DNA from: Acidobacteria bacterium RIFCSPLOWO2_12_FULL_68_19
Lineage (GTDB): Bacteria; Acidobacteriota; Vicinamibacteria; Vicinamibacterales; UBA2999
Assembly: GCA_001767525.1 (NCBI GenBank)
Contig: MELF01000017.1
Coordinates: 137,556-201,555, forward strand
Length of the DNA: 64,000 bases
Direction of reading: 5' to 3'
Part shown: one piece after another, positions 28,547 through 46,388 of the stretch
Layout: the number at the start of each line of letters is the position of its first letter
How positions within the stretch are numbered: position 1 is the stretch's first letter
Position numbers and translations under genes: made by a program
Notes under the pieces: model-generated
What the model was told of the DNA's origin: nothing
Database searches by the model: none
What the model saw: only the letters and a program-made list of their open reading frames with translations

Positions 28547-29877
28547 TGGCGGCCGACCCCGCCGTCGATCGTGTCGATGCACCGTCGCGTTCGCTCATCG
28601 ACGCGTGCGTCCACTGCGGCTTCTGCCTGCCGACATGTCCCACGTACTTGCTGTGGAGCGAGGAAATGGATTCGCCGCGCGGCCGGATCTACCTGATGAA
28701 GGCCGGCCTGGAAGGGCGCGCGGCGCTGACGCCCACCTTCGTGCGACATTTCGACACGTGCCTCGGATGCATGGCGTGCGTGACCGCGTGTCCGTCGGGC
28801 GTGCGGTACGGGCCGCTCATCGAGCGCACACGAACGCAGATCGAGCGCCGCTACAGGCGGCCGCTCGCAGATCGCGTGTTTCGCTCCATGCTGTTCGCGC
28901 TGCTCCCCTACCCGGGACGCCTGCGGATCGCGCTCGCACCGCTCGTCGTTCTCGGGTGGCTGCTCGAAGCGGCCGACCGATCGGGGCTGCTCGGCGTGCT
29001 GCCGCCGCGACTCCGCTCGCTCGTCAGGTTGGCGCCGCCGGTCTCATGGAGCTCGCTGACCGCGCGCGTCCCGGTGGAGACGACGGCTGCCGGCGCCGAA
29101 CGGATGACAGTCGGCCTGCTGACGGGCTGCGTGCAGCGACTGGCCTTTCCGCACGTCAATCAGGCGACGATCAATGTCCTCGCGGCGGAAGGGTGCCGAG
29201 TGGTGGCGCCAGCGGCCCAGGGATGCTGCGGCGCGCTCGCCCTTCACGCCGGCCGGATCGACCAGGCGCGCGCGCTCGCGCGCCAGACGATTGCCGCCTT
29301 CGAGCGCACCGGCGTCGACCGCATCGTCGTCAACGCCGCCGGCTGCGGATCGTGCATGAAGGAGTACGGCGAGCTCTTTGCGGACGACCCGGCATGGGCC
29401 GAGCGCGCGCGCGCCTTCAGCGCGGGTGTGCGCGACGTGTCGGAAGTCCTCGTCGAGCTGGGCGAGCGCCGCGCCCCACGGCATCCGATCCCGGCGCGGG
29501 TCGCGTACCACGACGCCTGCCACCTGGCACACGCCCAGGGCGTCCGCGCCGAGCCGCGCGCCCTGCTGGCGGCCATTCCGGGACTCGACGTACAGACGCC
29601 CGCGGAGAGCGACATCTGCTGCGGGAGCGCCGGGATCTACAACCTGGTGGAGCCCGAGGCCGCCGCGGAGCTGGGAGCCCGGAAGGCGCGGCAACTCGCA
29701 GCGCTCGCGCCGGACTTCGTCGCGACAGCGAACCCCGGCTGCATCCTCCAGATCGCCGCCGCCGGCCGGCGACTGGGCTTCACCTGGCGGATCGTGCACC
29801 CCATCGAGCTCGTCGACGCCTCGATTCGCGGAGGATTTCAACGGGGCCGTGTCGCCGGACCCACCCTCGGTACGTAG
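28546..29877 (+). CDS. glcF: Glycolate oxidase iron-sulfur subunit
   Basis: CVHCGFCLPTCPTY, CLGCMACVTACPSGV, two CCG-type cysteine motifs; TGATG overlap with glcE. Confidence 0.92.
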   Translation: MAADPAVDRVDAPSRSLIDACVHCGFCLPTCPTYLLWSEEMDSPRGRIYLMKAGLEGRAALTPTFVRHFDTCLGCMACVTACPSGVRYGPLIERTRTQIERRYRRPLADRVFRSMLFALLPYPGRLRIALAPLVVLGWLLEAADRSGLLGVLPPRLRSLVRLAPPVSWSSLTARVPVETTAAGAERMTVGLLTGCVQRLAFPHVNQATINVLAAEGCRVVAPAAQGCCGALALHAGRIDQARALARQTIAAFERTGVDRIVVNAAGCGSCMKEYGELFADDPAWAERARAFSAGVRDVSEVLVELGERRAPRHPIPARVAYHDACHLAHAQGVRAEPRALLAAIPGLDVQTPAESDICCGSAGIYNLVEPEAAAELGARKARQLAALAPDFVATANPGCILQIAAAGRRLGFTWRIVHPIELVDASIRGGFQRGRVAGPTLGT

Positions 29878-30127
29878 TTTGCCGCGGACGTTGTCGATCC
29901 ACACCGTCGACCTTTTCGAGAGCCAGTCCTTCAGCCAGACTACTCCCACCCAGTTACAACGGTCCGCCAAGAATGAGACAATTGCGCTATTGACGACCGC
30001 GCCGGCCAGCCATAGGTTGGCGCGTATCGCCGGGCCCTGGGATCCCTCGCAGCGGGAAGGCACGTCGGTCGCATCGGTGGCAAGATCGCCTGGAGAGGCG
30101 GTGAGCATGCGGTCGGGAGATGGGCGA

Positions 30128-31066
30128 ATGCGAAAGCTGGTCGTTCTCATCGTGGCGAGTCTGGTGGGGGTGACCGGTGTCAAGGCCCAGGAGGCGTCTG
30201 CCGGACGCGGGGGGCCACCGCCGGCGGCACCTGCCTGTCCACCAGGCGGCTACTCGCCGCCGTACTACGCCCTGTTCGGACAAAACGGAGGCGATGGACA
30301 GACAGCCTTCGAAATCGCCAGCCCGTGCATCGGCAAAGACGTGCGGGAGGTCGCCGAGGCGATCGGGATGGGCCGCAGCAGGCTGCTGGGCGTCAAGAAC
30401 GTGATCACGATCATGTTCTCCGCGCAGGGCACGATGACCGAGGCGGGCGGGACGGCCAAGCTCAGCAAGGCGGACTTCCACATGGCGTACTACCTGCCGG
30501 CCATGCGGATGTTCCTCAAGGGCACCCGCGCCGACGGCACACCGCTCGAAGAGATTCGCGTCTTCGCGGATCAGTACGCGTGGAACGAAGCCCAGGAGGG
30601 CAGGGGCGCAACGCCAGCGATGAGCACGCTGAATGCCCGCGCGCCGCTTCTCAAGCTGACGCCGTTCGGCGCGATGTGGTCGGTGATCGAGGCCGAGGGC
30701 CACGCCGTGGTCAGCAAGCGCGCGGACGGAAGGACCGTGCTGACCGGCACCTCGCCGCACGACGGCATCGAGGTGTCGGTGACGGTCGACGATCAGCATC
30801 ACAATCTGGGGCCTTACACCGTGGAGGAGACGATCCGGCTTCCGATCGAGGTCACGGCGAAGGCGAACGGTCACGTGTACGGAGCGACGTTTGCCGAGTA
30901 CCGTGATGACATGGAGCCGAATGCGTGGGTCCTCTTCCCGCGCCTGATCAGATGGACCCTCGACGGCAAGCCGTTTGCCGATCTCACCGTCACGTATTTC
31001 CGTTCGAATCCATATGTCGTCTTTCCGGTTCCCGATGTCGTGAAACAAAGATCGCCGTCGTTCTAG
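30128..31066 (+). CDS. Exported protein of unknown function
   Basis: MRKLVVLIVASLVGVTGVKAQ signal; no family recognised in the remainder. Confidence 0.75.
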   Translation: MRKLVVLIVASLVGVTGVKAQEASAGRGGPPPAAPACPPGGYSPPYYALFGQNGGDGQTAFEIASPCIGKDVREVAEAIGMGRSRLLGVKNVITIMFSAQGTMTEAGGTAKLSKADFHMAYYLPAMRMFLKGTRADGTPLEEIRVFADQYAWNEAQEGRGATPAMSTLNARAPLLKLTPFGAMWSVIEAEGHAVVSKRADGRTVLTGTSPHDGIEVSVTVDDQHHNLGPYTVEETIRLPIEVTAKANGHVYGATFAEYRDDMEPNAWVLFPRLIRWTLDGKPFADLTVTYFRSNPYVVFPVPDVVKQRSPSF

Positions 31067-31100
31067 AGACGACTGAGAGCTCACAGAAAGGACTCAAGTA

Positions 31101-31490
31101 ATGGTCAAGCACATCGGCAAGGCGTTCGCCGCGTTTGCAGTGGTGCTGATGGTCACGAGTGCGCCCCTGGCGGCTCATCACTCGGCAGCGGCCGAGTTCG
31201 ACGTGACCAAGGAAATCACGCTGACCGGCGTGCTCACGAAGTTCGAGCTGGTGAACCCGCACACCTGGTTCTACGTGGACGTCACCGGCCCCGATGGAAG
31301 AGTCACCTCGTGGAGATTGGAGGGGCTGAGCCCCAACGGCCTGATCCGACAGGGCCTCAAGATGAGGGACGACTTCAAGCTCGGGGGTACCTATACCTTC
31401 AGGATCGCTCCCGCCAGGAAGGAACCGGCGCTTGGATTCCTGAAGGCGGTGACCGTCAACGGCAAGGAGTACGTCGTCGTCGAACTGTAG
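31101..31490 (+). CDS. DUF6152-like exported protein
   Basis: APLAAHHSAAAEFDVTKEITLTGVLTKFELVNPHTWFYVDV; SD AAAGGA. Confidence 0.8.
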   Translation: MVKHIGKAFAAFAVVLMVTSAPLAAHHSAAAEFDVTKEITLTGVLTKFELVNPHTWFYVDVTGPDGRVTSWRLEGLSPNGLIRQGLKMRDDFKLGGTYTFRIAPARKEPALGFLKAVTVNGKEYVVVEL

Positions 31491-31498
31491 GAGGGCAC

Positions 31499-32437
31499 GT
31501 GGCGTACACAATCCGATCTTCGGGGGCAGCGGCGGTCGCGCTCCTCGCCGCCGTGGTGTCGGTACCGGTGGGGTCGGCGGCTCAGCAGGCGCCGCAGGGC
31601 ACTCCGCAGGTGCCTCCGAGCAACGCGCAGCGGACGGGAAACCTTCCCCTTCGGGACGTGCGAACCTCGTACAGCCCGGCGGGCAAGCGGGTGTCCCCGC
31701 AGGACGGGCTCGTCATGCAGCAGCGGTCGTCGCGGCCGACGCCGCGCGACGCCGACGGCCACCCCGACCTGTCCGGAAACTGGGTGGTGAACTTCCCCAA
31801 CCCGATCGGCACGCCGGGATTGCGCAGGCGCGGGGCGTTCGAACCCGACCAGGCGGTGATGCAGCGCGGCGCGCAATGGAACAAGCCGCTCTACAAACCC
31901 GAGTACTGGGAGAAGGTCAGGAGCCTCGACTTCAGCAAGGCCGACGTCGACCCGAATTACGGGTGCGGCAAACCCAGCGGCGTGCCGCGGCAGAACGTGC
32001 CGTCGCGGATCGTGCAGAAGGACGGACAGATCTGGCTCTTCAACAACGTCACCGACAGCGGCCTTCGCATCCTCCCGCTCGACGGCCGGCCGCGGGACCC
32101 GCAGGACGAGCAGTTCTCGACGTGGAACGGCATGGGGCACGCCCGCTGGGAGGGCGACGTGCTGGTCGTCGAATCGGTCGGGTTCAACGACCAGTCATGG
32201 CTCGGCTGGGAAGGGTACTTCCACAGCGACAAGATGAAGGTGACCGAGCGCTTCCTCCGAGAGGGCGATCTGCTCTTCTACACCTTCACCGTGGACGATC
32301 CGGAGGTGCTGATGGAACCCTGGACGTCGTACACGTATGTCAGGAGGTTGAACCCGAACCCCTCGCGCATCGACGAGGCGGCACCGTGCGACGAGCGCGA
32401 TATCGACCTGCTGGTAGACCCGTTCTTGCGCGGCTGA
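31499..32437 (+). CDS. Exported 'DGxPDxxGxW' family protein, paralogue 1
   Basis: RDADGHPDLSGNWVV...RWEGDVLVVESVGFNDQSWLGWEGYFHSDKMKVTERF; GTG start. Confidence 0.75.
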   Translation: MAYTIRSSGAAAVALLAAVVSVPVGSAAQQAPQGTPQVPPSNAQRTGNLPLRDVRTSYSPAGKRVSPQDGLVMQQRSSRPTPRDADGHPDLSGNWVVNFPNPIGTPGLRRRGAFEPDQAVMQRGAQWNKPLYKPEYWEKVRSLDFSKADVDPNYGCGKPSGVPRQNVPSRIVQKDGQIWLFNNVTDSGLRILPLDGRPRDPQDEQFSTWNGMGHARWEGDVLVVESVGFNDQSWLGWEGYFHSDKMKVTERFLREGDLLFYTFTVDDPEVLMEPWTSYTYVRRLNPNPSRIDEAAPCDERDIDLLVDPFLRG

Positions 32438-32507
32438 TCACGATTCACGTCTGCCGTCAACGAACGTAGGGCGCTGGCGCGGGATCGTCAATCGCCCCGC
32501 GGCCGTA

Positions 32508-32528
32508 CCCGGCGCACCAGGCGCCGGG
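32508..32528. terminator. GC hairpin between convergent genes (candidate bidirectional terminator)
   Basis: CCCGGCGC-ACCAG-GCGCCGGG, perfect 8-bp stem; no clear U tract. Confidence 0.4.
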
Positions 32529-32554
32529 CGCGGCCGACACTGGCACGCCCCACA

Positions 32555-35548
32555 TCAGAACGCGAGACGGATACCGAGCTGCAGCACGCGCGGCCCGTAG
32601 GCGATGTTGCTGTTGAACGACGGGCGGCCGTACAGGGCGTTGCTCTCGTTGGTCACGTACGATCCGTAGTTGGCATGGTTGAAGATGTTGAAGACTTCGA
32701 ACATGCCGTCGAGGCGCATGGCGCCGCCAATCGGGATCCGCTGCTGCAGCCGGAGATCCACGCGGTGAATCGACTCGCCGCTGAAGCCGTTCCGGGCGAC
32801 GATCGAGCCGTCGGCGCGCAGCCGCTGCTCGTTCGAGCCGCCGACCTGGTTCGCGGTCGGCGCCTGTCCTCCCTCACCACGCCGGTCGACGCCCGTGTTG
32901 ACCGCGAGCCGCTCGCCGGCGCCGTAGAAGTAGATGCCGCTCACCTGGAAACCCCGGCCGACGTCCCAGATGCCGTTGGCGGTGACCCGGTGACGTTGAT
33001 CGCCAACCGCGTAGGTGTACTCGCCGCCCATATCCGGCGCCAGCGCAAACGGGATCGGCCCGTGCTGCGCCAGGCCGTCGTCCCCGATGAACCACTGCTC
33101 CCGGCGTGGATACGCGTCCTTGAAATGGGCGAGCGTGTAGCTGGCTGAGAACTGCCAGTTGTCGCTGTATCGCTTGGTGAACGTGAAGTCGGTGCCGTAG
33201 TAGTTGGACCATCCGGCCAGCCACTCGAAGTTCACGGTGCCCCATCCCGGAAACGGCCGCCGGCTGACATCGCTGAACGGGTAGTTGGCCCCGGTCGCCT
33301 GGTTGTACGACAGGTTGCCGTTCGTCGAGCTCTCCTCGCGCCGCCCGGCCGTGTAGTTGAAGTTCACTTCAACGACCGCGACGGTGCCCACCTGCCGCTG
33401 CACGCCCGCGCCGGCTTGATGGCTGTACTGCGGCGGACGCCCGGCGTAGCCGATCTCCTGCACGAGCGACCTGTACGAGCAGCGCGGCGCCGAGCGGTTC
33501 ACGTCGCAGGCGTTTCCGAGCGCCTGCTCCCACGTCGGCTTCGGTCCGCCCCACTCCCCTTCCGGGCTGGGCCCGGTCCCGTGCCAGTTCGGCACGAAGT
33601 CCGCCCGGCCGTCAGGAAAGATCTGCTCCTCGAAGCGTGGGCAGTCATTCGACTCGAACGTGCACCGGTAACCGACCGACTGCTGCACGGCGTCGTTCGG
33701 CTGGAACGCGAAGAAGAGCCCGTAGCCGCCCCGGAGGACCGTCCGATCGTCGAGACGCAGGTTCACCCCCAGCCGCGGCGCGAAGTTCGCCTTGTTCCGT
33801 GGAAGATCGCCCGGCAGCCACGGCCGGAATTCGAGCTTCTCGTTGTTCCCGTTGCTGTCGAAGTCGTAGCGCAGGCCGACGTTGAGCGTCAGCCGGTCGT
33901 TGACGCGCCAGTCGTCCTGCGCCCAGCCTGCGAACAGATGACGCGTCACGTCGTAGGTATGCTCGGTGCTGGATTTCGCATGGAAGACCCAGCGGGTGAT
34001 CGGCGTCAGCGGCTGCAGGTTCCACGTCGAAGGATCGTTCCAGACGGGGAAGAGCGCCTCCAGGTTCGCCGGCGCCGGACCGCCCGTGGCGTCGATCTGG
34101 CCCATGCACCGCAGGCACCAGCGGAAATCGTTGTAGAACCGCATGTATTCGCCGCCGAGCTTCACGTCATGACGCCCCCGCCAGTCGAACGACGTGGTGA
34201 GATCATCGCGGACGTTCGCCGTGTCCTGGACGATGTTCAGCGGGTTGATGCCGATGTTGAAACCACGCACGTTGACGAGCACCGTTCCGCCGTTCAGGAC
34301 CGGATGGTAGGGCATCGTCTCTTGTCCCTTCCACGTCAGCGTGGCGGAGCCGTCGCGCCGTTCGTAGAAGGTGGCGCCGCCTCTGACTTCGTTGACCGAG
34401 CGGTTGCTCAGCACTTGTGTGAAGGAGCCGACGTACTGGCTCGATATCCGTCCGTGCCGCCCCATGTTGATCGGGTGCTCGGTCGACCCTCCCCCGCCAC
34501 GCTGTACGTGGAACCACCGGTTGTAGGCCGACACCCGGCCCGAGATCCGGGTCTGAGGGGTGATCTGGTAGTCCACGCGCCCGATCGGCTTGTGCGTCCG
34601 ATCGGTGAACGCGAGGTCCATGTTGAAGGAGGGATACGGCGTGCTGTAGACGAACGTCTTCGGCTCGCGCTCGTACTCGTAGGCGCCGAAGAAGTGCAGC
34701 CGGTCGCGGATGATCGGACCGCCCACGGTGCTGCTGAGCTGCTGATTCGAGTAGGGGAGAACCCGATTGGCGACGAAATCCTCCGAGTTGAACCTGTCGT
34801 TCCGGAAGTAGCCGCCGACCGTGCCGGTGAAGTCGTTCGTCCCCGACTTGGTGATCGCGTTCACGACCATGCCGGCCGAACGTCCGACGCTCGCGTCGAA
34901 GCGGTTCTGCACCACCTGGAACTCCGCAATCGCGTCACGACTCCATTGCGGCTGCTCGTCGTCGCCACTCGAGTGATAGTTCGTCGTGACCTGCTGGCCG
35001 TCGACGTTGGTCTGCGAATAGCTCTGCCGGGGCTGCACGTACCCGCCCGACTCGTTCCGGCGCGCCCCGGGCGTCAGCAGCGCCAGGTCCATCCAGTTGC
35101 GGCCGTTGATGGGGAGTTCCTCTACTTGTCGCGGATCGATGTTGGAGGCGACGATCGAGGCGGTGGTGTCGATGAGCGGCGCCTCGCCCGTGACCGTCAC
35201 CGTTTCCTGCAGCGCCGCCGGCGCCAGCTGCAGCGCGAGGTTCACCTGCTGCCCGAGCAGCAACTGGAGATTCGTGCGGGTGACGGTCTGAAACCCCGAC
35301 AACCGCGCCGTCACGCGGAACGTGCCGACGCGCACCGGCATACGGAAGCTGCCGGTGCCGTCCGTGACCGCCTCGAACGTATTGCCGGACGCCTCATGGA
35401 CCGCCACGACGGTCACACCAGGCAGTACGCCGCCCGTGGTGTCGGCAACGGTGCCCATCAGGACGGCTTCTTGCGCTTCACCGGCCGCCGGCCACATCAC
35501 GATCACCGCGATCATGAGCAGCCATCGGCCCATCTTGGACCTTCTCAT
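32555..35548 (-). CDS. TonB-dependent receptor, Oar-like (second copy)
   Basis: QEAVLMGTVADTTGGVLPGV, ETVTVTGEAPLID, ELPINGRNWMDL, C-terminus RVLQLGIRLAF; SD GGGAGGAGAC before ATG. Confidence 0.9.
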   Translation of the reverse strand: MRRSKMGRWLLMIAVIVMWPAAGEAQEAVLMGTVADTTGGVLPGVTVVAVHEASGNTFEAVTDGTGSFRMPVRVGTFRVTARLSGFQTVTRTNLQLLLGQQVNLALQLAPAALQETVTVTGEAPLIDTTASIVASNIDPRQVEELPINGRNWMDLALLTPGARRNESGGYVQPRQSYSQTNVDGQQVTTNYHSSGDDEQPQWSRDAIAEFQVVQNRFDASVGRSAGMVVNAITKSGTNDFTGTVGGYFRNDRFNSEDFVANRVLPYSNQQLSSTVGGPIIRDRLHFFGAYEYEREPKTFVYSTPYPSFNMDLAFTDRTHKPIGRVDYQITPQTRISGRVSAYNRWFHVQRGGGGSTEHPINMGRHGRISSQYVGSFTQVLSNRSVNEVRGGATFYERRDGSATLTWKGQETMPYHPVLNGGTVLVNVRGFNIGINPLNIVQDTANVRDDLTTSFDWRGRHDVKLGGEYMRFYNDFRWCLRCMGQIDATGGPAPANLEALFPVWNDPSTWNLQPLTPITRWVFHAKSSTEHTYDVTRHLFAGWAQDDWRVNDRLTLNVGLRYDFDSNGNNEKLEFRPWLPGDLPRNKANFAPRLGVNLRLDDRTVLRGGYGLFFAFQPNDAVQQSVGYRCTFESNDCPRFEEQIFPDGRADFVPNWHGTGPSPEGEWGGPKPTWEQALGNACDVNRSAPRCSYRSLVQEIGYAGRPPQYSHQAGAGVQRQVGTVAVVEVNFNYTAGRREESSTNGNLSYNQATGANYPFSDVSRRPFPGWGTVNFEWLAGWSNYYGTDFTFTKRYSDNWQFSASYTLAHFKDAYPRREQWFIGDDGLAQHGPIPFALAPDMGGEYTYAVGDQRHRVTANGIWDVGRGFQVSGIYFYGAGERLAVNTGVDRRGEGGQAPTANQVGGSNEQRLRADGSIVARNGFSGESIHRVDLRLQQRIPIGGAMRLDGMFEVFNIFNHANYGSYVTNESNALYGRPSFNSNIAYGPRVLQLGIRLAF

Positions 35549-35860
35549 GTCTCCTCCCGCGTCCTTGGTGATCGGTTGAACCCGAATCGCCGCACAGCTC
35601 CGGGCCCATTCGGGTATTCGAGGGTGCCGTATTCTAGGACCGGCGCTCGAGTCGGTCAATGCGTCGGAGCGGGGTCCCGGGCGCGCAACAGGGTCAACCA
35701 CGACCGATCGAGCGTGAGTGGCGCGCGCGAACAGCGCGCGACCGCGAAGCCGAGCGCCTGCGGGGTCGCCGGTGAGAGATTTTCCCCGGCGAGGTGTTTC
35801 CCGGCGCCTGACGTGGGGTCGCCTTCTGTGGGCTCGGCGAACGGATTGGAATGAGGCGAT

Positions 35861-35892
35861 GCAGGGGGGGGCTGACGGCCGCCCCCCTCTGC
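35861..35892. terminator. Strong GC hairpin immediately 3' of the diheme protein gene
   Basis: GCAGGGGGGGGC-TGACGGCC-GCCCCCCTCTGC, 12-bp stem with one G.T pair; lacks a U tract. Confidence 0.45.
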
Positions 35893-35904
35893 GGGATGTG
35901 TAAC

Positions 35905-36780
35905 CTACGAACAGCTGTTGCCGGCGCGCTGACCGCGGACCCAGGCGGCCAGTACCTGCCACTCAGGATCGTCTTTGCTCTGCCAGCGTCGTACGCCGTT
36001 GTGGGCGTACGAGCCTCCGCCGTCGGGATGCAGCGGCTTGATCATGAACCGGCTCTGATCGGGGTTGCCGGGAATGATCAATCGTGAGATCACCTGGAAC
36101 GCCCGCTTGGCTTCTTCGTCGTTCCACGCCGTCCGGCCTTCTCCGGGCACGGGCGCGAAGCCGATCTGGCCGGCGCCGTGGCAGTTGCTGCACCGGACGT
36201 GCCCCTCGCGGGGAGTCTGGAAGACGCGCTGCACGCACGAGCGGAAGAACTCGAAGTCCACCGTCGGATCGGGCGGCGGCACGTACCGATCGGACGGCAG
36301 GCTCTTGATCCACGCCAGCACGGACTGGTACTCCGGATCGTCGCGGGAGGTCCAGAACGTGCCGCCGGTGTGCATCAGGCCGCCTGCGGCCGGGGCGAGC
36401 GGCTTGAGCAGCAGTCGGCTCCGCTCCGGCTCCGCCGTGTTGATGAGCTTGGTGACGACATCGAAGTTGCGCCGCGATTGCTCCGCGGTCCATCCGGCGT
36501 CGGTTGCGGGCGTGTCGAGGCTGAACCGCAGCGGCCGCACCTGCCAGGTGTGGCACATCACGCACGACGCGTAGCCTGGGCTCGTCCCGCCGCGAGGCTT
36601 GAGGAACACCGATTCGATGGTCGTGCGAAACGATGCGACGTTGGCGTCCGAGGGGCCTGCGGAGGCCTGTGCCGAGGCCGACGCCCCCGGCGGAGCCGAG
36701 TCGGCCCGGCTCGACGTTGCCAGACCGACGGCCAGGAAGAAGAGCACTGCGTACCACACGCGTCGCTGTCCACTGGTCAT
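35905..36780 (-). CDS. Exported diheme c-type cytochrome-like protein
   Basis: Signal peptide; two CxxCH motifs (CVMCH, CSNCH). Confidence 0.8.
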   Translation of the reverse strand: MTSGQRRVWYAVLFFLAVGLATSSRADSAPPGASASAQASAGPSDANVASFRTTIESVFLKPRGGTSPGYASCVMCHTWQVRPLRFSLDTPATDAGWTAEQSRRNFDVVTKLINTAEPERSRLLLKPLAPAAGGLMHTGGTFWTSRDDPEYQSVLAWIKSLPSDRYVPPPDPTVDFEFFRSCVQRVFQTPREGHVRCSNCHGAGQIGFAPVPGEGRTAWNDEEAKRAFQVISRLIIPGNPDQSRFMIKPLHPDGGGSYAHNGVRRWQSKDDPEWQVLAAWVRGQRAGNSCS

Positions 36781-36805
36781 GAGGGTTGCTCTCCGAAAAT
36801 CCACG

Positions 36806-37978
36806 TCAGCGACCCGCAGCCTGGGTCGGCGCCTGGACCGCGTTGCTCGCAGTCGGGGTGTTCACACGGTTCAACGGCAGGATGGCGGTGCTGATCCGGG
36901 CCGGGCGCGCGCCGGTCCTGATCTTCGCGACGATCTGACGCTTCTGCAGGTCCACGGCAAGCGTGTGATCGGATCCCGAGACGGCCACGTACATGTACCG
37001 GCTGTCCGGCGTCGGCGTCATCCAGTTCGCCGTCGGACCCACTTCGACCGACCCGATGTACTTCAGATCCGGCAGCGTCCAGCCGTAGATCCGGCTGTCG
37101 AGGCGGCTCGACGCCCAGACGGCGGAGCGGTCCGGCAGCACTTCGAGCCCGTGCATGTCGCCGCCCTGGATGCCGTCGGCGTTCTGGCGCCATAGCGGCA
37201 GCGGCGGCGGCCACAGCATGTCGACGACCTTGTGCGTGCTCCAGTCGATGACCCAGACCGCATTGATGCGGGCCGCCTGCGCGAACATCCGCTTCGTGGA
37301 GCCGTCGGGATTCGCCTCGAACGCCATCGGCCGCACTTCGTGGTTGTCCCGGCCGTACTGCCGGTGCCCGGTCAGCTCCATGCTCCACACCACCGTGTCG
37401 GTCGCGGCGTCGATCACTTGAATGGTCGGCTCGCCGGGCTCCGGGTCGCCGGCAAGGCCGGCCACGACGAAGTTCTCGTCCGGCGTCACGTAGGTGTTGT
37501 GGACCGGATGGTGGACGGGAATGCTGCGCACCAGTGTGTGCGTCGTGATGTCGATGACGTCGAGGAGTGCACGACCCTGCGCGCGCTGGCGGATCGCCGC
37601 GTAGATCTTCTTGTGCTTCTTGTTGACCGCGATCTTGTTCGGCCGCGCGGACAGCTTGATCTGCTGGACGCGCTGCAGCGTGACCGTGTCGAACACGTCG
37701 ACCGTCTGCTCCTGCTCGTTCGAGCAGTAGTAGTACAGCCCGTCCGGATGGGTCGTCAGATTGTGCGCGTGCGGACAGCCCCGAATGAGGCCCACGACCT
37801 GATTGACGGTCGGATCGATGATGTGGTGGACGGTTCCGGCGTTGTTGCTCTGCAGGATCCGCACGGCGACTCCCTTGTAGGAGTCGAGCCGCGGCACGCC
37901 CTGCGCCGCCGTCAGTGCCGTAAGAAGCAGGATGCCGAAAGCCGTCAGCCATCCGCGAATAGCCGGTGAACGGGTCAT
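36806..37978 (-). CDS. Exported YVTN/YncE-like beta-propeller protein
   Basis: Repeated ...VIDITTHTLV..., VIDAATDTVVWS, VAVSGSDHTLAVDLQKRQIVAKI; SD GGAGGT before ATG. Confidence 0.78.
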   Translation of the reverse strand: MTRSPAIRGWLTAFGILLLTALTAAQGVPRLDSYKGVAVRILQSNNAGTVHHIIDPTVNQVVGLIRGCPHAHNLTTHPDGLYYYCSNEQEQTVDVFDTVTLQRVQQIKLSARPNKIAVNKKHKKIYAAIRQRAQGRALLDVIDITTHTLVRSIPVHHPVHNTYVTPDENFVVAGLAGDPEPGEPTIQVIDAATDTVVWSMELTGHRQYGRDNHEVRPMAFEANPDGSTKRMFAQAARINAVWVIDWSTHKVVDMLWPPPLPLWRQNADGIQGGDMHGLEVLPDRSAVWASSRLDSRIYGWTLPDLKYIGSVEVGPTANWMTPTPDSRYMYVAVSGSDHTLAVDLQKRQIVAKIRTGARPARISTAILPLNRVNTPTASNAVQAPTQAAGR

Positions 37979-38110
37979 CGTGACCTCCATCGAACGTTCG
38001 TACTGCCGCCTTGACGGGAACTCCAGCGCGCGGATGTTGCGCGCCGGGGTGCGCTGGGGTCTCCCATGAGAGGCTTTAGGGTACCACGAAGTCGCAACGG
38101 AGGAAGCCCT

Positions 38111-39187
38111 CTACCGGCTCGACGTCACCGCGCCGTTCTGCGGCCGGTACTGCTTGGTGAACCCGTTCCGGCCGTTCGTCATCGTGAAGCTGCCGTCGCT
38201 GCGCGCCGACAGCTTGATATGATGGCCCCCGTCGCGGTCGGTGAAGTTCGCGATGAACTGCTCGGCCGAGTTCACCTCCCGCGCCACGTTGTCCGAGTAG
38301 TGGAGCTGCCAGAAGTCTTCCAGACCCGGTGAGCTCTTCACGATCTGGAAGGTTCCCGGCGTGCCGCCCTTGGTCGGATTGTTGTTCATGACGGCGACTC
38401 TCGGCCGCACGGCATGGACGAGCGGCTGCGCGCCGGCCCAGTCGGTGCCGTGGCGCGAGGTGCGGTACACCGCCACCGTGCCGAGCAGGTTGGACGGACA
38501 GGCGAGCTCGAGCTCCTGATTCCAGGTCAGGTCGGCCAGGTCGAGAAACCGAAAGCGGCCGTACTCGACGAGGACGCCGATGCTCTCGTAGTTGTTCGGC
38601 GTGTTGTCCTGCGCCCGGCGCTGGGCGGTGGCGCACAGCGGATTCGGCGCGCGCCGGACGCCCGCGAGCGGCGCCGTGATCAGATCGCCCGCCGACGAAA
38701 TGACGTGCACCTCGAGGCCCGCGACCGGAATCTTCATCGCCGGCTTCGGGATCGTTACGTGGGCGTGCTGCCGTACCGGCACGTAGGACAGATATCCAGC
38801 TTCACGGTTGCCGTGCTGCTCGGGCACGAACGCGCCGGGATCGAGCACCCGCCGGACGGGCACCTTGTCGAAGAGGGCGGCGACCCCGCCCACGTGATCG
38901 CCGTGGTAGTGCGACACCACGAGCGTGTCGACGCGTTCGACGCCGGCGTCCTTCATCGCCGCCACGATGCGGTCCGCATCGCGCCCGGGCGGGTTGAGGT
39001 TGCCCGCGTCGAGCAGCAGCACCTCCTTGGTGCCGAGGATCCCGTCGGTCGGCGAGACAATAAGCGTTGACATCCCGCCTTCGGTATCGATGAAGTAGAT
39101 GTCGGTGGTCGCCTGGCTGTTGGTTTGCGCGGCTGCCATCGCCGCCAGCAACGCCACCGCCACTCCCGTCGCGAATATCTTGCGCAT
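38111..39187 (-). CDS. Exported metallo-beta-lactamase fold hydrolase
   Basis: LLLDAGN, SHYHGDHVGG, VMNNNPTKGG; SD GGAGG. Confidence 0.82.
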   Translation of the reverse strand: MRKIFATGVAVALLAAMAAAQTNSQATTDIYFIDTEGGMSTLIVSPTDGILGTKEVLLLDAGNLNPPGRDADRIVAAMKDAGVERVDTLVVSHYHGDHVGGVAALFDKVPVRRVLDPGAFVPEQHGNREAGYLSYVPVRQHAHVTIPKPAMKIPVAGLEVHVISSAGDLITAPLAGVRRAPNPLCATAQRRAQDNTPNNYESIGVLVEYGRFRFLDLADLTWNQELELACPSNLLGTVAVYRTSRHGTDWAGAQPLVHAVRPRVAVMNNNPTKGGTPGTFQIVKSSPGLEDFWQLHYSDNVAREVNSAEQFIANFTDRDGGHHIKLSARSDGSFTMTNGRNGFTKQYRPQNGAVTSSR

Positions 39188-39213
39188 CATTGCCTCCAAG
39201 CCAGCTGGTAGCT

Positions 39214-39244
39214 GGTAGGCGGTAGCACGTCGCTACCGCCTACC
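39214..39244. repeat. Perfect 13-bp inverted repeat (hairpin) upstream of the MBL-fold gene
   Basis: GGTAGGCGGTAGC-ACGTC-GCTACCGCCTACC. Confidence 0.9.
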
Positions 39245-39281
39245 GGCTACTACCTACCGGCTACTACCTACCGGCTACCGG
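39240..39281. repeat. 14-bp direct repeat (CTACCGGCTACTAC)n overlapping the end of the upstream CDS
   Basis: Two exact copies at 39240-39253 and 39254-39267 plus a partial third. Confidence 0.9.
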
Positions 39282-41110
39282 CTAGCCGTCTGCCGGGTCG
39301 CCGCCGCCGGGAACTGCAGCCGGACCACCTTGTTGGACCGGTTGTACGGCGCCCACACGGTCACCGGGTCCGTCCGGTTGTCGATCTGCACGTGGCGGAT
39401 CTCGGTGCCGCGGGTCGGCAGGACATATTCCGTGAACCGCTCCGTCCGTGGATCGAACTTGGTCAGCACGTCATGGTTCATCGTGTTGATCCAGACCACG
39501 CCGTTCTTGTCCACGGCCAGCGCGTAGGGCGACGCGTACGGCGTGGGCATCGCATATTCCCTCACCTGGTTCGTCTTGGTGTCGATGCGCGCGATCCGGT
39601 CGGAGGTGTACAGCGCGACCCACACGAGGTCGCGGTTCGGATCGGCCGCCAGGCGCCGGGGCGCCTTGTGTCCGGGCGGCGCGCTGTTCTGGCTCGCGCG
39701 CACGGTCCGGCGCCGCTGCCGGTCGACGTCGGTGACCTCCGGCATCACGAGCGGCTCGAGATTGACCGCCGTCACCTGTCCGGTCCTGCTGTCGATCTTC
39801 AGCACGCGATCGAGTCCCGGATTGGTGGCCCACACGTTGTCGTCCTTGTCGACGGTGTTGCCGTAGGTGCCCCATCCGCCGCACGGGGCGCCGCAGAGGC
39901 CTTCCGGCGCCGGAGGCCCTTCGTAGTGCTTGTATTCACCGGTGTCGGGGTCCACCATGATGACGCCGTTGAGCGAGGTCGCCCACGGGCGACCCTTCGA
40001 GTCGACGTCGAGGGTGCCGCCGACGGCCGCCCGCATGCCCGCCGGCCGGCGGAACTCCTTCATGTTGCCCGTCCGGGTATCCAGCACAACGAAATTGCCG
40101 TGACCGGTGGCCCACACGCGTCCGACGTAGTCGACCACCACGCTGTGGGTGGCGATCGACTTGCCGTCCTCACCCTTCAGCGCGTAGTCGGTGACCTTGC
40201 CCGTCGTCGGGTCCAGCTTGGCAAAGGTCCGCCCGGGAACGAGGTCGTCGGCCATCCAGATGTTCCCCTCGGCGTCGGGCCACACGTCGTGAGCCGCCCG
40301 CCCGATGAACCGCGACGGCGTGCCCATCGACCAGTCCGTGCCGTCATCGAAATGGTTCGGGCGATCCGTGCGGGGCAGGTCGTACTCGGTAATCACGACC
40401 TGCGTCGCCTCACCCGTCGGTCGCGGCAGGAGCTTGAGATTCTGCAGCTCGGTGGCGCCGCGGGCACGGCCGAGATACTCCGCCAGCTCGTCGCGGTACG
40501 CCCTGATCATCGGATTGCCCGGCCGCTCCGGGGTCGGCCGCATCGCCGGGACGGGTTCGCCCGTGCTCGGGAAGACGGCCATCAGGTCCACGAGCACGCC
40601 CCATCCGCGGGCGTCCCAGCGGTTCTGCAGTGTGTAGCTGGCCGTGTGGCAGCCGGTGCAGTTGTTCTTGTACGCGTGCGCCATGCGGCGATCGGCCGGC
40701 GTGCTCTGCGGCAGGCTCTGGAGGTACTCGACTCCGGACATCTGCTTCACAATCCGTCCGACTTCCTTGATGGGGGTCAGCGTGAGGTTCCGCTCCGTCC
40801 TGCCGCCGGCGAGCGCGAACTCGGCCCTACCGGCCTCGAAGCCGACCGCCTGCGCCCACACCTTGTACTGACCGCCGTCAAGGGACGGAAAACTGTAGTT
40901 CCCCTGCCGGTCGGTGAACACTGACGTCGTGAAGGTCTTGTCGGCCGCGCGCGCCGACACGATGACGCCTTCCATCGGCCGGCCGTCGGCCGACTTGACG
41001 TTTCCAGCGATGACGCCGGGGCCTCGTGTCTGCGCCGCCGGCGGCATCTGAACCGCCGCCGCGGCCACGATCACCCCGAGAACGAGAGCCAGCGATTTCC
41101 AGTGAGACAT
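39275..41110 (-). CDS. Exported fusion: carboxypeptidase-regulatory-like domain, c-type heme motif and virginiamycin-B-lyase-like beta-propeller
   Basis: GVIAGNVKSADGRPMEGVIV; NNCTGCHTASY; repeated NIWMADD/VWATG/VWVALYTSDRIARIDTKTNQVREY/VWINTMNHDVLTKFDPRTERFTEY. Confidence 0.82.
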   Translation of the reverse strand: MSHWKSLALVLGVIVAAAAVQMPPAAQTRGPGVIAGNVKSADGRPMEGVIVSARAADKTFTTSVFTDRQGNYSFPSLDGGQYKVWAQAVGFEAGRAEFALAGGRTERNLTLTPIKEVGRIVKQMSGVEYLQSLPQSTPADRRMAHAYKNNCTGCHTASYTLQNRWDARGWGVLVDLMAVFPSTGEPVPAMRPTPERPGNPMIRAYRDELAEYLGRARGATELQNLKLLPRPTGEATQVVITEYDLPRTDRPNHFDDGTDWSMGTPSRFIGRAAHDVWPDAEGNIWMADDLVPGRTFAKLDPTTGKVTDYALKGEDGKSIATHSVVVDYVGRVWATGHGNFVVLDTRTGNMKEFRRPAGMRAAVGGTLDVDSKGRPWATSLNGVIMVDPDTGEYKHYEGPPAPEGLCGAPCGGWGTYGNTVDKDDNVWATNPGLDRVLKIDSRTGQVTAVNLEPLVMPEVTDVDRQRRRTVRASQNSAPPGHKAPRRLAADPNRDLVWVALYTSDRIARIDTKTNQVREYAMPTPYASPYALAVDKNGVVWINTMNHDVLTKFDPRTERFTEYVLPTRGTEIRHVQIDNRTDPVTVWAPYNRSNKVVRLQFPAAATRQTASR

Positions 41111-41170
41111 TGAACCTCCAGAACTCACGGTGTCTAGGGTACCTGAGATCCTACAGGCACCTTCGCCACG

Positions 41171-41536
41171 CTAGAGCGTCTTCATAAAAGCGATCAGGTC
41201 CTCGAACTCCGCCGGGGTAAAGGTGTACTGAAATCCGGGCATGCGCGGCGACCCCTGCTGAATCTGCGTCCGCACCACCTTTTCCCGCTCCGGCGTCACA
41301 TTCTTGAACACCCCGCTCAGCCGCGGTCCCATCGGGTCGTACACGTCGTCCTTGACGATGCGTCCCATGTGACAGAGGGAGCAGTGCTGGTAGAACCGGG
41401 CCTCGCCGCGCCTGGTTCGGTCCACCGACGCCGGCGCCGCCGTCGTCTGCGGCGATGCGTCGCGCGGGACAATCACGGCGGCGGCGGCCATCGCGATGGC
41501 CACCGCCGCGGTCTTGCGCCATGTCGATCTTGTCAT
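41171..41536 (-). CDS. Small exported c-type cytochrome
   Basis: Signal peptide; CSLCH; MGPRLSGVFKN; PEFEDLIAFMKTL-type C-terminus. Confidence 0.85.
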   Translation of the reverse strand: MTRSTWRKTAAVAIAMAAAAVIVPRDASPQTTAAPASVDRTRRGEARFYQHCSLCHMGRIVKDDVYDPMGPRLSGVFKNVTPEREKVVRTQIQQGSPRMPGFQYTFTPAEFEDLIAFMKTL

Positions 41537-41543
41537 CCCAGTA

Positions 41544-41562
41544 TCCTCGTGTCTTCGTGTCT
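41544..41562. repeat. 9-nt periodic intergenic repeat (AGACACGAAGACACGAGGA on minus)
   Basis: tcctcgtgtcttcgtgtct between TBDR stop and cytochrome start. Confidence 0.55.
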
Positions 41563-44515
41563 AGAACGCGAACCGGAACCCGAGCTGCACCATCCGCGGC
41601 TGGTACGCCACGTTGGGGTTGAACGACGGCTGCCCATAGTTGCGGTTGCTCTCAAGCACCGTGTACGACCCGTAGTTCTCGTGATCGAACACGTTGAACA
41701 CTTCCAGGAGGCCGTCGATGTTCGTCCGCCCCAGCAGCGCGAACCGCTTCTGCAGGCGCACGTCGACACGGTGGAGGGCCTCTCCCTCGAGGCCGACCCG
41801 CGGCGTCGCGCCGCCACCGGCGCTGGCCGGGCGGGCTCTCAGACCGGAGACAGACGCGCCCAGTCCAGGAGTCGTGCCGCCGGTGCCACCCGTGTTGAGC
41901 GCATCACCGCCGTATGCGGTGGCAAACCGCTGGCCGGACCCGAAGAAGTACAACCCGCTCAACTGGAACCCGTACGCCATCTGCCAGATGCCGTTGAAGA
42001 CCGCGCGGTGCCGCTGGTCGGTCGCGGCCAGGCTGTAGTCTTCGCCGAGCGGCGCCTGCAGCCTGAACGGCACCGGACTCATCACCCCGCTCCAGGGGTT
42101 CGGGACACCGTCGCGGAAGACAGACGCGCTGTACGTCGCCGAGGCCTGCCAGCGGTTGCTCATCCGCTTCGTGAACGAGACCTCCAGGCCGTGGTAGTTG
42201 CTCCAGCCCTCGAAGATGTCCATCGGCACCTGGCCCCACTCCGGATACGGCCGGCGGCTGATGTCGGTGAACGGGTAGTTCAGCCCGGTCGCCTCATTGA
42301 AGCTGAGGTTGATGTTGTAGTTCTGGACCCGATCCTTGCGCCCGCCGTTGTACGAATAGTCCGCCGTCACGCCCATCGTGTCGCCGACCTGCCGCTGCAC
42401 GCCGACCGACGCCTGATACGCGTACGGGTTCTCGGCGTCGGGCGGCGCGATCGTCTGCCCGAGCGCGCGCCGGATGCACCCCGGCCGAAAGTTCACGTTG
42501 CAGAACGCCTGCTCCAGATCCTCCGCCCTCGGCAGCGGGCCGTTCCACGGGTTGACCGCAAAGTCCGCGCGGCCGTCGTAGAGCGCCGACAGCACGCGCT
42601 GCGTGTTCGCGAACCGGATCGGATGCGCCACCTGGTTGATCAGCCACGCGTAGTACTTGCCGAATCCGCCGCGAATCACCGTCCGGTCGTTCAGGCTGTA
42701 GGCGAAGCCGAGGCGCGGCACGATGTTGTCGGTGTCGAGAGGGCGATCGGCCGGCAGGAACGGCGGCACGCCCAGCTCGTTGGCGAACGTGTCGGTCTCG
42801 ACGTCATACCGGACGCCGACGTTCAGCGTCAGCCGCGAGGTCGGGTGCCAGTCGTCCTGGAACCAGACCGCGAAGATGTCCCGCGGACTGTTGATGTTAC
42901 AGGGACCGAACGACGTGCGGTACTCGCGTGAGATCGGCGAGAGCGCCGCGAGATTCCACGTGTTCGGATCGTTCCACACCGGGAACAACTGCTCGATGTT
43001 GGCCGGCACGGGCCCGTTGTCGGCAATCAGGTTGCCCCGCAGGAAATTGCACCAGTCGTGCCACATCTCGTACTTGAGGTACTCGCCCCCCACCCGCATG
43101 TCGTGGCGGCCCCGCAGATCCGCGGAGATCGTCAGGTCGTTGCGCAGCGTGTAGACGTCCTGGCCGATGAACTGCGGGAAGTTCGTCCCGCCGCCGACGT
43201 TGAACCCGCGGAGCGTAATCACGGGCGGGTACTGCCGCTCGTTGGCGACCGGATTCCGCGCATTGGCCAGCCCCGTCGGGGTCGCCCACTTGACGTTCGG
43301 CTCCATCCGCCACCGGTTCGCCGCCCAGCCGACCTTCGTCTCGTTGAACGCCCGGTTGCTCAGCACGCGGGTGAAGGTGCCCTGCAGCGCCTCGGCGTAC
43401 TTGTCGAAGCTGATGGTGTTCGCCGGATGGTTCGTCGCGCCGCCGGTCGTCGTCTGCGTGCCGTCGATCGGCACGTAATCGCGCCAGAGATTGCCGGACA
43501 CGGTGAGGCGCATCGCGCTGGAGATCTGGCCGTCCACGCGCAGGCTCGGCTTGTGCTGCGTGTGCGTGGATGTGAGATCGAGGTTGAAGCTCGGATACGG
43601 TGTGTTGTGCGTCACCGTCGTCGGCTCGCGCTCGTACTCGTAGGCGAAGAAGAAGTGCATCCGGTCGCGGCGGATCGGGCCCCCGGCCGTGGTGCTGATC
43701 TGCTGGTTCGAGTACGGCAGCACCCGGTGCTGGATGAAATCCTCCGCGTTGAGATCGTCGTGCCGGAAGTAGCCCGAGACCGACCCGGACGGCGTGTTCG
43801 TGCCCGACTTGGTGATGACGTTCACCTGCGCCCCCGAGGAGCGCCCCTGCGTCGCGTCGAAGCGGTTCGAGATGAACTGGAACTCCGCGATCGCGTCGCG
43901 GCCGAAGCTCGGCTGCCGGTTGGAGCCGCCGCAGCAGTTGTTGGTCACCTGCATGCCGTCGATGTTGAGCTGCACGGTCCCCAGCCCCGTGGTGACCGGC
44001 AGTCCGCCGGTATCGGCGTGGTTGGCCCGGTTGCCCGGGGCGAGCAGCGTGAGGTCGAGGAAGTTGCGCCCGTTGACCGGCAGCTCCTGCATCTGCCGCG
44101 AATCGATGTTGCCGCCAAGCTGAGACGAGGCGACGTTGACGAGCGGCGCCTCGCCGGTCACGGTCACGGTTTCGGTCACCGTCGAAGGCTTCAACTCCAG
44201 ATTCAGCGTCACCTGCTGCCCGACGAGCACTTCCAGGCCCATCCGGTCGAGCTTGGCAAACCCGGCCAGGTCCGCGGTGATGCGGTAGACGCCGATGCGC
44301 ACCGGTACGCGGAAGGTGCCACGATCGTCCGTGAACGTCTCGAACACGGTGCCTGTGGCATCGTGCACCGCCTGCACGGCGACGCCAGGGAGCACGCCGC
44401 CCGTCGAGTCCCTGACCGTACCGCTAATCACTGCCTCCTGCGCCAGCACGACGCCGGGCAGCGCGAGCATGCCGGCTACCGCTACTATCCGAGCGAATAC
44501 GAGCACTCGTCCCAT
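41561..44515 (-). CDS. TonB-dependent receptor, Oar-like (third copy)
   Basis: QEAVISGTVRDSTGGVLPGV, ETVTVTGEAPLVN, ELPVNGRNFLDL, C-terminus MVQLGFRFAF. Confidence 0.9.
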   Translation of the reverse strand: MGRVLVFARIVAVAGMLALPGVVLAQEAVISGTVRDSTGGVLPGVAVQAVHDATGTVFETFTDDRGTFRVPVRIGVYRITADLAGFAKLDRMGLEVLVGQQVTLNLELKPSTVTETVTVTGEAPLVNVASSQLGGNIDSRQMQELPVNGRNFLDLTLLAPGNRANHADTGGLPVTTGLGTVQLNIDGMQVTNNCCGGSNRQPSFGRDAIAEFQFISNRFDATQGRSSGAQVNVITKSGTNTPSGSVSGYFRHDDLNAEDFIQHRVLPYSNQQISTTAGGPIRRDRMHFFFAYEYEREPTTVTHNTPYPSFNLDLTSTHTQHKPSLRVDGQISSAMRLTVSGNLWRDYVPIDGTQTTTGGATNHPANTISFDKYAEALQGTFTRVLSNRAFNETKVGWAANRWRMEPNVKWATPTGLANARNPVANERQYPPVITLRGFNVGGGTNFPQFIGQDVYTLRNDLTISADLRGRHDMRVGGEYLKYEMWHDWCNFLRGNLIADNGPVPANIEQLFPVWNDPNTWNLAALSPISREYRTSFGPCNINSPRDIFAVWFQDDWHPTSRLTLNVGVRYDVETDTFANELGVPPFLPADRPLDTDNIVPRLGFAYSLNDRTVIRGGFGKYYAWLINQVAHPIRFANTQRVLSALYDGRADFAVNPWNGPLPRAEDLEQAFCNVNFRPGCIRRALGQTIAPPDAENPYAYQASVGVQRQVGDTMGVTADYSYNGGRKDRVQNYNINLSFNEATGLNYPFTDISRRPYPEWGQVPMDIFEGWSNYHGLEVSFTKRMSNRWQASATYSASVFRDGVPNPWSGVMSPVPFRLQAPLGEDYSLAATDQRHRAVFNGIWQMAYGFQLSGLYFFGSGQRFATAYGGDALNTGGTGGTTPGLGASVSGLRARPASAGGGATPRVGLEGEALHRVDVRLQKRFALLGRTNIDGLLEVFNVFDHENYGSYTVLESNRNYGQPSFNPNVAYQPRMVQLGFRFAF

Positions 44516-44585
44516 GGGCCCTTACTCCTTATGTTGAAAAGGATTGAGACCGGAACCGACACCAACCGGACTACGGGTGACCCAC

Positions 44586-45464
44586 CTACTTTCCGTTCTC
44601 GCTTCTGTCGAAGGGAATGCCGAAGGCCACGTGCGCGGTCTTGTTCCCTTCGCAAATCGCGCTTTCCCACTGCTCTTCAGGCTTGTTGCGCCCGAGACGC
44701 ACGTAGAGCTTCCAGGGCTTCGTGAACACCTTCGGATCGTCGATCGTCGCCACGTAATCGATCCGATCCTTGTTGACGAACGTCCACCGTTCCGTCACCC
44801 GCATCGCGTCGCTGTGGAAGCTGCCGACGATGTCGAACCACGTCCTGTCGTTGTGGTTGGTGACATCGACCACCAGGGTGTTGCCTTCCCACCGGCCGCG
44901 GGAGTCTCCCATCCACAGCTTCAGCGAGTCGCCGATATGAGGCCGTCCGTCGAGGTAGATCACGCGGTAGTGATGAGAGTACTCGTGCACCATCACGATG
45001 TAGGTCGGGAACTGCAGGATGCGCATGTTCTGCTGATAGATGATGCGGGGAACGCCTTCCAGGAAGCACCGGGAGACCGGATCGAGCAATTCCGGCCGCG
45101 ATGGCTTCCGGTGCTGCGCGTAATGGAACGCCGCCTGCTTGGCTGCCCATGGCTGATAGGGAATCACGCCGTCTGGTGGATCGATGATCGGCCTGCCCAG
45201 TTGCGGCGCCTGGCCGCCGATCGTCACGTGTTCTGCCCGATCCTGGAGGCCAGCCTGGATACTGTAGGTCGTGATGTCGCTTCTCTGCCCCCAGTTGCCC
45301 TGGATGTCAGGCTGCCCATCCGCCGTCCGCGGCGCATCCCACTGGGTCTCAGCCGCCGGCAGCAGTTGGCCCGCCTCCTGGCCCGCCGCGTAGGGCGGCG
45401 CCGACAGCGCAGCAGCGCTAGCAGCCGCAAGCATCACCCCGAAGGCTCGATTCCTCACGCGCAC
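44586..45464 (-). CDS. Exported 'DGxPDxxGxW' family protein, paralogue 2
   Basis: RTADGQPDIQGNWGQ...RWEGNTLVVDVTNHNDRTWFDIVGSFHSDAMRVTERW. Confidence 0.75.
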   Translation of the reverse strand: MRVRNRAFGVMLAAASAAALSAPPYAAGQEAGQLLPAAETQWDAPRTADGQPDIQGNWGQRSDITTYSIQAGLQDRAEHVTIGGQAPQLGRPIIDPPDGVIPYQPWAAKQAAFHYAQHRKPSRPELLDPVSRCFLEGVPRIIYQQNMRILQFPTYIVMVHEYSHHYRVIYLDGRPHIGDSLKLWMGDSRGRWEGNTLVVDVTNHNDRTWFDIVGSFHSDAMRVTERWTFVNKDRIDYVATIDDPKVFTKPWKLYVRLGRNKPEEQWESAICEGNKTAHVAFGIPFDRSENGK

Positions 45465-45569
45465 CCCTCCTTCGACTTCCGCCAGGTTCCCGGTGCTGTC
45501 CGATGGCTTCTCCGCTCCGTGTCTACCGCCGACGGTCCCGCAGTCCGTCCGGTGCTCGTTCCCCCGCCT

Positions 45570-46388
45570 CTACCTGGGCGCGATCCGATCGCCCGGCCGT
45601 GTGCCCACCGCCACGCCGTCAAACGCATAACACTCGTGCTCCAGCAACTGGAAGTTCGGCTCCTTGTGCCGATAGAGGAGCATGCTCATCTTCCAGGGGC
45701 GCGTGAAGACTTTCGGATCCTCGACCGTCACCTCGTACCGGATCGTGTCCTCGTCGGCAAATGTATAGCGCTCCGTCAGCTGCATCTGCTCGCTGTGAAA
45801 ATTCCCGGCGCGATCGAACCACGTGCTGTCGTTGAAATGCCGCACGCTGACGACGAGCGTGTCGCCGTCCCATCGCCCGCGCGAGTCGCCCATCCACCAG
45901 TCGATCGGCCCCTCGGGGTGCCCGCTGCCGTCCACGAAGATGTGGCGGACCGTATGCACGTACTCGTAGAGGATCGCGATGTAGTTCGGTGTCTGGACGA
46001 CCTGGAACGGAAACGGCATGTAGGTGATACGCGGCACGCCGGGCAGGTAGCAATTGACTTCGGGATCGAGCGTCCGTCGATTCTTGTAGTTCTCTTCTTT
46101 CTGCTTACGGGCCCACGGCTGGTACGGAATCTCGTTGCCTTCGACCACGCCTCGACTTGCGGGAATCCCGAGCCACGGCGCGCTGTGGGGACCCGGCTCC
46201 GCGTTCTGATCCTGGAGGTTCCAGGCGGCGCCGTTCATCACCTGCCAGATCCCGGAGAAGTCGGGATGGCCGTCCTTGCCCCTGGGAACAGCCTGTCCAC
46301 CCGCGCCCTGGCCCGCCACGGGCACTCCCAGCAACGCGACGACCGCCGTCACTCCCACCGCCCAGCGCGTGAGCCGACCGTTCATCAC
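45570..46388 (-). CDS. Exported 'DGxPDxxGxW' family protein, paralogue 3
   Basis: GKDGHPDFSGIWQVMNG...RWDGDTLVVSVRHFNDSTWFDRAGNFHSEQMQLTERY. Confidence 0.75.
   Translation of the reverse strand: MMNGRLTRWAVGVTAVVALLGVPVAGQGAGGQAVPRGKDGHPDFSGIWQVMNGAAWNLQDQNAEPGPHSAPWLGIPASRGVVEGNEIPYQPWARKQKEENYKNRRTLDPEVNCYLPGVPRITYMPFPFQVVQTPNYIAILYEYVHTVRHIFVDGSGHPEGPIDWWMGDSRGRWDGDTLVVSVRHFNDSTWFDRAGNFHSEQMQLTERYTFADEDTIRYEVTVEDPKVFTRPWKMSMLLYRHKEPNFQLLEHECYAFDGVAVGTRPGDRIAPR

Follow-up and report, generated by a model that had tools for sequence, protein, structure and literature searches.

The twelve genes located between positions 30128 and 46388 of a 64,000-nucleotide stretch (the window) of contig MELF01000017.1, from the genome of Acidobacteria bacterium RIFCSPLOWO2_12_FULL_68_19 (4.2 Mb, 52 contigs), have been analyzed. 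The explanation tentatively favoured is that this block represents a satellite of an undescribed, widespread envelope system, with a core formed by the DUF6152 and DUF6644 families, usually accompanied by tandem genes of a third family (DG, with the motif DGxPDxxGxW), which would be devoted to the metal-centred processing of a ligand. DUF6152 and DG are a genuine co-conserved and undescribed pair. The initial annotation of the block, made from its sequence, had proposed a candidate extracytoplasmic system composed of receptors, heme proteins, propellers and both families; it included neither DUF6644 as a third partner, nor the calycin fold of DG, nor the His-His at the N-terminus of DUF6152.

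The distribution of the three families was scored in all multi-genome comparisons as presence only, not copy number. Among 119 genomes across the phylum, DG and DUF6152 were found in an identical set of nine, and DUF6644 was above cut-off in the same nine. A set of 396 genomes revealed DUF6152 in 54, DG in 50, DUF6644 in 50 and all three in 48, with 342 genomes having none of them and none of the 396 containing DG or DUF6644 without DUF6152. At the genus level, the 25 genera with DG fall inside the 28 with DUF6152, out of 211 (p ~1e-29, a statistic that ignores descent), and the presence of the three families is patchy within families f1, f3, f6 and f15. The Oar-type barrel PF25183, used as a control, was found in 380 of the same 396 genomes, and therefore the DG/DUF6152/DUF6644 pattern goes beyond general abundance. 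Thus, the expectation in the initial annotation that the families of the block co-occur more closely than their abundance in the phylum would give was borne out for DUF6152 and DG (48-54/396 genomes versus 380/396 for the Oar-type receptors). For the fusions of a heme domain and a Vgb-like propeller, which the initial annotation had included among the families to be compared, proximity to DG in the source genome was not significant (4 of 11, p=0.05), and the fusion was discarded as a general DG partner.

Local linkage in the source genome was evaluated against 5000 circular shifts, with contigs placed end to end and some contig sizes approximated; a null of random placement was dropped, since the clustering of DG genes made it too permissive. 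Of the 34 DUF6152 genes, 24 had a DG gene at a distance of 3 kb or less (shift mean 2.4, maximum 11), the four DUF6644 genes were all within 1.5 kb of DUF6152 (shift mean 0.09), and TonB-dependent receptor (TBDR) genes were within 6 kb of DG in 18 of 39 cases (shift mean 4.9, maximum 16). In 79 related loci of other genomes, which had been found by DG, DUF6152 was present within 3 kb of DG in 56 and tandem DG in 70; pyrroloquinoline quinone (PQQ) dehydrogenases were found in 17 of these loci, and cytochromes, propellers and hydrolases recur beside DG/DUF6152. Five single-polypeptide fusions, with DUF6152 followed by DG, were found in metagenome-assembled genomes (MAGs) of Acidobacteria, Gamma- and Alphaproteobacteria (L114:5278-6438, L102:6774-7871, L111:8537-9529, L067:6417-7508 and L091:8343-9812; four proteobacterial MAGs and one Acidobacteria MAG).

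The DUF6152 protein of the window (31101-31490, + strand; Pfam E=5e-24) matches PF19649 with 84.7 bits, the cut-off being 27, and its His-His codons are located at 31176-31181. Signal peptidase I requires a small or aliphatic residue at position -3 and one of the Ala/Gly type at position -1. Ala or Gly directly precedes His-His in 94 of the 97 DUF6152 members of the fetched loci, and the -3 residue is small or aliphatic, so that signal cleavage, as predicted from this sequence rule, would expose His-His as the mature N-terminus. In mature numbering, H1, H2, P28, H29 (the histidine of an NPH motif) and four glycines are invariant over 79 diverse sequences, and H1, H2 and H29 provide an N-terminal histidine and a second conserved histidine, as in a histidine brace, where two histidines and the amino terminus bind one metal. 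Histidine at mature position 1 occurs in 2.6% of the secreted proteins of the SignalP training set (PMC12537917). The His-His of DUF6152 is likely a metal site, as predicted from these residues. The AlphaFold2 model of the mature window protein is an oligonucleotide/oligosaccharide-binding (OB) fold (pLDDT 93) that matches SSB, PriB and LysRS; searching the PDB by sequence yielded no DUF6152 relative, and a literature search found no paper naming the family.

About 85 relatives of DG3, the DG gene of the block used as query, are present in the source genome (88 matches, of which a few are parts of the same gene), often in tandem. Arrays of five to eight consecutive paralogues were observed at C33:53640-61730 and C17:11984-16146. 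None of 96 diverse DG members matched Pfam, no Pfam or NCBIfam model matched the three DG proteins of the block, and a profile search of the PDB found no solved DG relative. The AlphaFold2 model of DG3, obtained with a 96-sequence input (pLDDT 87.6, pTM 0.81), was compared with the PDB by Foldseek, and all 50 matches listed were FABP/CRBP/CRABP proteins (CRBP1, CRABP2), UnaG, an SAHS protein or streptavidin, with probability 0.97-1.00, best E 5.5e-4 and TM 0.46-0.60 (normalized by target length). Over the 96 members G45 is invariant and W47 nearly so, with GxW at the first strand, the same place at which lipocalins carry it. The proteins have about 270 amino acids, an extra helical insert and no lipobox. 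DG is therefore confidently predicted to be a calycin barrel of the lipocalin/FABP type, for which the binding of a small hydrophobic ligand is the natural inference. Structure prediction, which the initial annotation had suggested for the unknown proteins, thus gave a recognizable fold for both DG and DUF6152.

DUF6644 has four genes in the source genome. Of 19 DUF6644 members, two match CopD weakly (best E 4e-4, under the Pfam cut-off) and four match DUF2214 (best E 1e-5). One membrane histidine, R, K, W and a GR are invariant. No relative of DUF6644 was found by PDB sequence searches, and no paper naming it by literature search. In low-copy genomes (G072, G006, G002, G008 and G038) the core unit consists of DG-DG-DUF6152 facing DUF6644-DUF6644-cytochrome c, and a c-type cytochrome adjoins DUF6644 in at least 10 of 20 core loci. 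A small cytochrome c with a C-terminal CXXCH and a lipoprotein-like start was observed directly beside the DUF6644 pair at L162:10604-11077, L171:10613-11092 and L175:10978-11451; its match to Cytochrom_C_2 is weak and falls under the cut-off. The proteobacterial evidence comes from fetched loci and plasmids. In plasmids of Novosphingobium, Sphingobium, Azospirillum, Cupriavidus, Caballeronia and Sinorhizobium, DUF6152 adjoins DUF6644, with or without DG, and every DUF6152 start that was read there shows A|HH. A two-gene DUF6152-DUF6644 operon without DG is found in Caballeronia and Cupriavidus, the two genes are adjacent in Azospirillum, and a Croceibacterium plasmid carries DUF6152 and DG beside a TBDR, with no DUF6644 within the stretch seen.

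The arrangement of the system is best read as a CopC/CopD-like layout diversified by calycin binders. An Oar-type TBDR would import a small hydrophobic ligand to the periplasm, where the DG barrel would bind it; the exported OB-fold DUF6152 protein, holding copper or nickel through its N-terminal His-His and the NPH histidine, would act on the ligand held by DG, either by redox chemistry or by transferring metal; in the inner membrane, the weakly CopD-like DUF6644 pair would supply or remove metal or electrons; and c-type cytochromes would be the electron partners. In the block, this last role may correspond to the small cytochrome, the heme-Vgb fusion and the diheme protein, with DUF6644 acting from another place in the genome. 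Sequence or prediction supplies the export signals, the His-His N-terminus, the folds, and the co-occurrence, adjacency and fusions of the families; that a metal and a ligand are bound, which way transfer runs and what the chemistry is are inferences.

The block itself comprises three genes on the + strand (30128-32437), convergent with nine genes on the - strand (46388-32555). The nearest homologues are in Acidobacteria/Vicinamibacteria MAGs. Coding composition was found in all twelve genes, and a simple export rule (positive n-region, hydrophobic core and A-x-A) identified a signal-peptide-like N-terminus in 12 out of 12, with no cytoplasmic enzyme gene among them, in agreement with the exported or outer-membrane character given to the block by the initial annotation. 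The first gene (30128-31066, + strand, signal-peptide-like start at 30128) encodes an exported protein of 312 amino acids without Pfam or NCBIfam match (E<=1 / 0.1), and is followed by the DUF6152 gene and by DG1 (31499-32437, + strand), a divergent DG member (E=2.6e-20 to DG3, C17:169282-169920). The - strand order is DG3 (45570-46388), DG2 (44586-45464, 46% to DG3), the Oar-like receptor TBDR3 (41561-44515; CarboxypepD_reg and PF25183, E=2e-81), a small cytochrome c (41171-41536; cytochrome CBB3, PF13442, E=1e-9), the CarboxypepD_reg, single-heme and Vgb-like propeller fusion (39275-41128; CarboxypepD_reg and Vgb_lyase matches), an exported metallo-beta-lactamase-fold (MBL) protein (38111-39190; PF00753, E=4e-9), a YVTN-type beta-propeller (36806-37978; TIGR02276/TIGR03866/YNCE), a diheme exported protein (35905-36780; weak cytochrome c matches) and the Oar-like receptor TBDR2 (32555-35548; CarboxypepD_reg and OMP_b-brl_4, PF25183, E=3e-76). 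Direct reading revealed two CXXCH motifs in the diheme protein (CVMCH and CSNCH), one in the fusion (CTGCH) and one in the small cytochrome (CSLCH). The genes of the - run are separated by 1-120 nucleotides as far as the diheme gene, and by 356 nucleotides before TBDR2. Promoter and terminator scans gave no excess over shuffled sequence, and scans for tRNA and Rfam families gave no match.

The six-gene run DG3-DG2-TBDR3-cytochrome c-heme/Vgb-MBL is a conserved operon-like unit, as two other genera (G019 and G034) retain its gene order. In G019, which belongs to another genus of the same family, the run is found at 59-87% identity between glcF and an NAD-dependent gene, and a TBDR2 orthologue (75% identity) occupies the same place beside glcF. 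The counterparts of DUF6152, DG1 and the first exported gene have diverged in this genome (38%, 38% and 32% identity, respectively), the weak homologue of the first gene lying next to DUF6152-DG1. The YVTN and diheme genes are absent, their place being taken by a multiheme cytochrome and a tannase-like hydrolase (DUF6351, E=2e-234). In this replacement (L139:13577-17255) the multiheme cytochrome is of the CytoC_RC type and has a second, C-terminal domain of no assigned family. G034 retains the run with 46-73% identity; the stretches fetched around it contained none of YVTN, diheme, TBDR2, DUF6152 or the remaining genes of the block and its flanks that were looked for. Identities in G019 and G034 were, respectively, 87% and 71% for TBDR3, 79% and 71% for the heme-Vgb fusion, and 77% and 64% for MBL. 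The diheme-YVTN pairing recurs in G035 (L150). The reading of the block as a single operon was rejected on account of the convergent strands and of the parts replaced in G019.

Metal import by a CopC/CopD-like pair is the main rival to ligand processing. According to this possible, though rather unlikely, explanation, DUF6152 would be a periplasmic chaperone handing copper or nickel to a DUF6644 importer, as in CopC to CopD or YcnI to YcnJ, with DG binding metallophores imported by the TBDR. It agrees with the smallest unit observed, the DUF6152-DUF6644 pair without DG of Caballeronia and Cupriavidus (and the adjacent genes of Azospirillum), with the N-terminal histidine of DUF6152 and the weak CopD similarity of DUF6644, and with published precedents (PMC12362106, PMC12537917). 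However, 34 DUF6152 and about 85 DG genes in one genome are hard to square with metal import, as are the c-type cytochrome beside DUF6644 in half or more of the core loci and the PQQ-dehydrogenase, hydrolase and propeller neighbours. Ligand processing is preferred because DG and DUF6152 have been multiplied and DUF6644 has not, because some species carry DUF6152-DG fusions, and because their neighbours repeatedly include cytochromes, PQQ dehydrogenases, propellers and hydrolases; the contrast between about 85 DG plus 34 DUF6152 genes and only four DUF6644 genes suits the diversification of ligands around a common membrane partner. Several facts weigh against ligand processing: the similarity of DUF6644 to CopD is below cut-off, the block lacks DUF6644, its DUF6152 and DG1 are divergent members, the heme-Vgb fusions are not significantly near DG in the source genome, and the proximity of TBDR and DG genes may come in part from the clustering of exported-protein islands.

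This clustering of DG and TBDR genes in islands of the source genome, together with a literature search that found no paper on DUF6152 or DUF6644, is also compatible with generic proteins of the envelope or of stress responses, devoid of metal chemistry, in which His-His would be a feature of signal cleavage or folding and the linkage that of exported-gene islands. The near-perfect co-occurrence of three families, the fusions and the invariance of H1, H2 and H29 over diverse sequences make this view unlikely. Even less probable is that the twelve genes form one dedicated pathway for the uptake and oxidation of a large or aromatic substrate, close to what the initial annotation had in mind. Export of all the gene products, the DG3-to-MBL order kept in both genera and TBDR2 in its place in G019 are in its favour. 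Nevertheless, the replaced or diverged genes in G019, with DUF6351 and a multiheme cytochrome instead of YVTN-diheme, the four genes not found in the stretches fetched around the run of G034, and the lack of enrichment of the heme-Vgb fusions near DG or TBDR genes of the source genome indicate a conserved six-gene run with replaceable parts and not a pathway of twelve genes.

The system resembles CopC-CopD and YcnI-YcnJ in having an exported N-terminal-His protein beside a polytopic membrane protein of putative CopD type and in its two-gene units, but CopC is a cupredoxin-like beta-sandwich whereas DUF6152 is a predicted OB fold, DUF6644 usually occurs as two small copies weakly similar to CopD, and calycin partners, cytochrome c and a large paralogue expansion are added. 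The four N-terminal-His metalloprotein classes described by signal-strapping (DUF4198, DUF6702, Ang-1 and Ang-2; PMC12537917) are likewise exported families of no assigned function with a histidine at mature position 1 and a conserved internal histidine. DUF6152 is not named there, fold and partners are different, and the histidine is conserved in 79% (DUF4198) and 65% (DUF6702) compared with 94/97 in DUF6152. The DUF6152-DG fusions recall lytic polysaccharide monooxygenases with a carbohydrate-binding module, in which an N-terminal-His domain is also fused to a binding domain, but a beta-sandwich and such a module are replaced by a predicted OB fold and calycin barrel. With known calycins (lipocalin, FABP/CRBP and avidin), DG shares the predicted barrel, the GxW that opens the first strand and the likely binding of small hydrophobes, and differs in the lack of a sequence-family match, its size and helical insert, its copy number and its DUF6152 partner. 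SusC/SusD loci likewise combine numerous TonB-dependent receptors with numerous exported binding partners. Here, however, the receptors are Oar-type (14.4 bits against the SusC/RagA model TIGR04056, with a cut-off of 368), there is no SusD match, DG has no lipobox and the link is to DUF6152/DUF6644.

On one side the block borders glcD/E/F-like glycolate oxidase genes; on the other lie an AMP-ligase and a gene resembling NAD-dependent epimerases. Window positions 22357-29993 contain an acetyl-CoA-synthetase-like gene and a major facilitator superfamily transporter (- strand), followed by the glcD/E/F-like genes (+ strand); glcE/glcF adjoin the DUF6152/TBDR block in G019 too. Another Oar-type TBDR frame (open frame of 1702 amino acids) is present at 19300-22360, with no block-like partners called, and the G+C content falls to 56-62% at positions 1-4000, compared with 66-71% elsewhere.

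A more far-reaching proposal, which is considered doubtful, is that DUF6152 constitutes a new class of exported OB-fold metalloenzymes with N-terminal His-His, whose ligands would be presented by calycins, sometimes in the same polypeptide, with DUF6644 as inner-membrane metal or electron partner and with dozens of ligand-specific paralogues in some soil and sponge-associated bacteria. If the favoured explanation is true, three families without assigned function would gain a common role, one of them (DG, of the order of 2% of the genes in this genome) lacking any family model, and an OB-fold class would be added to the N-terminal-His metalloproteins. It would also offer an entry point to a very large part of the unassigned secreted proteins of an abundant soil phylum.

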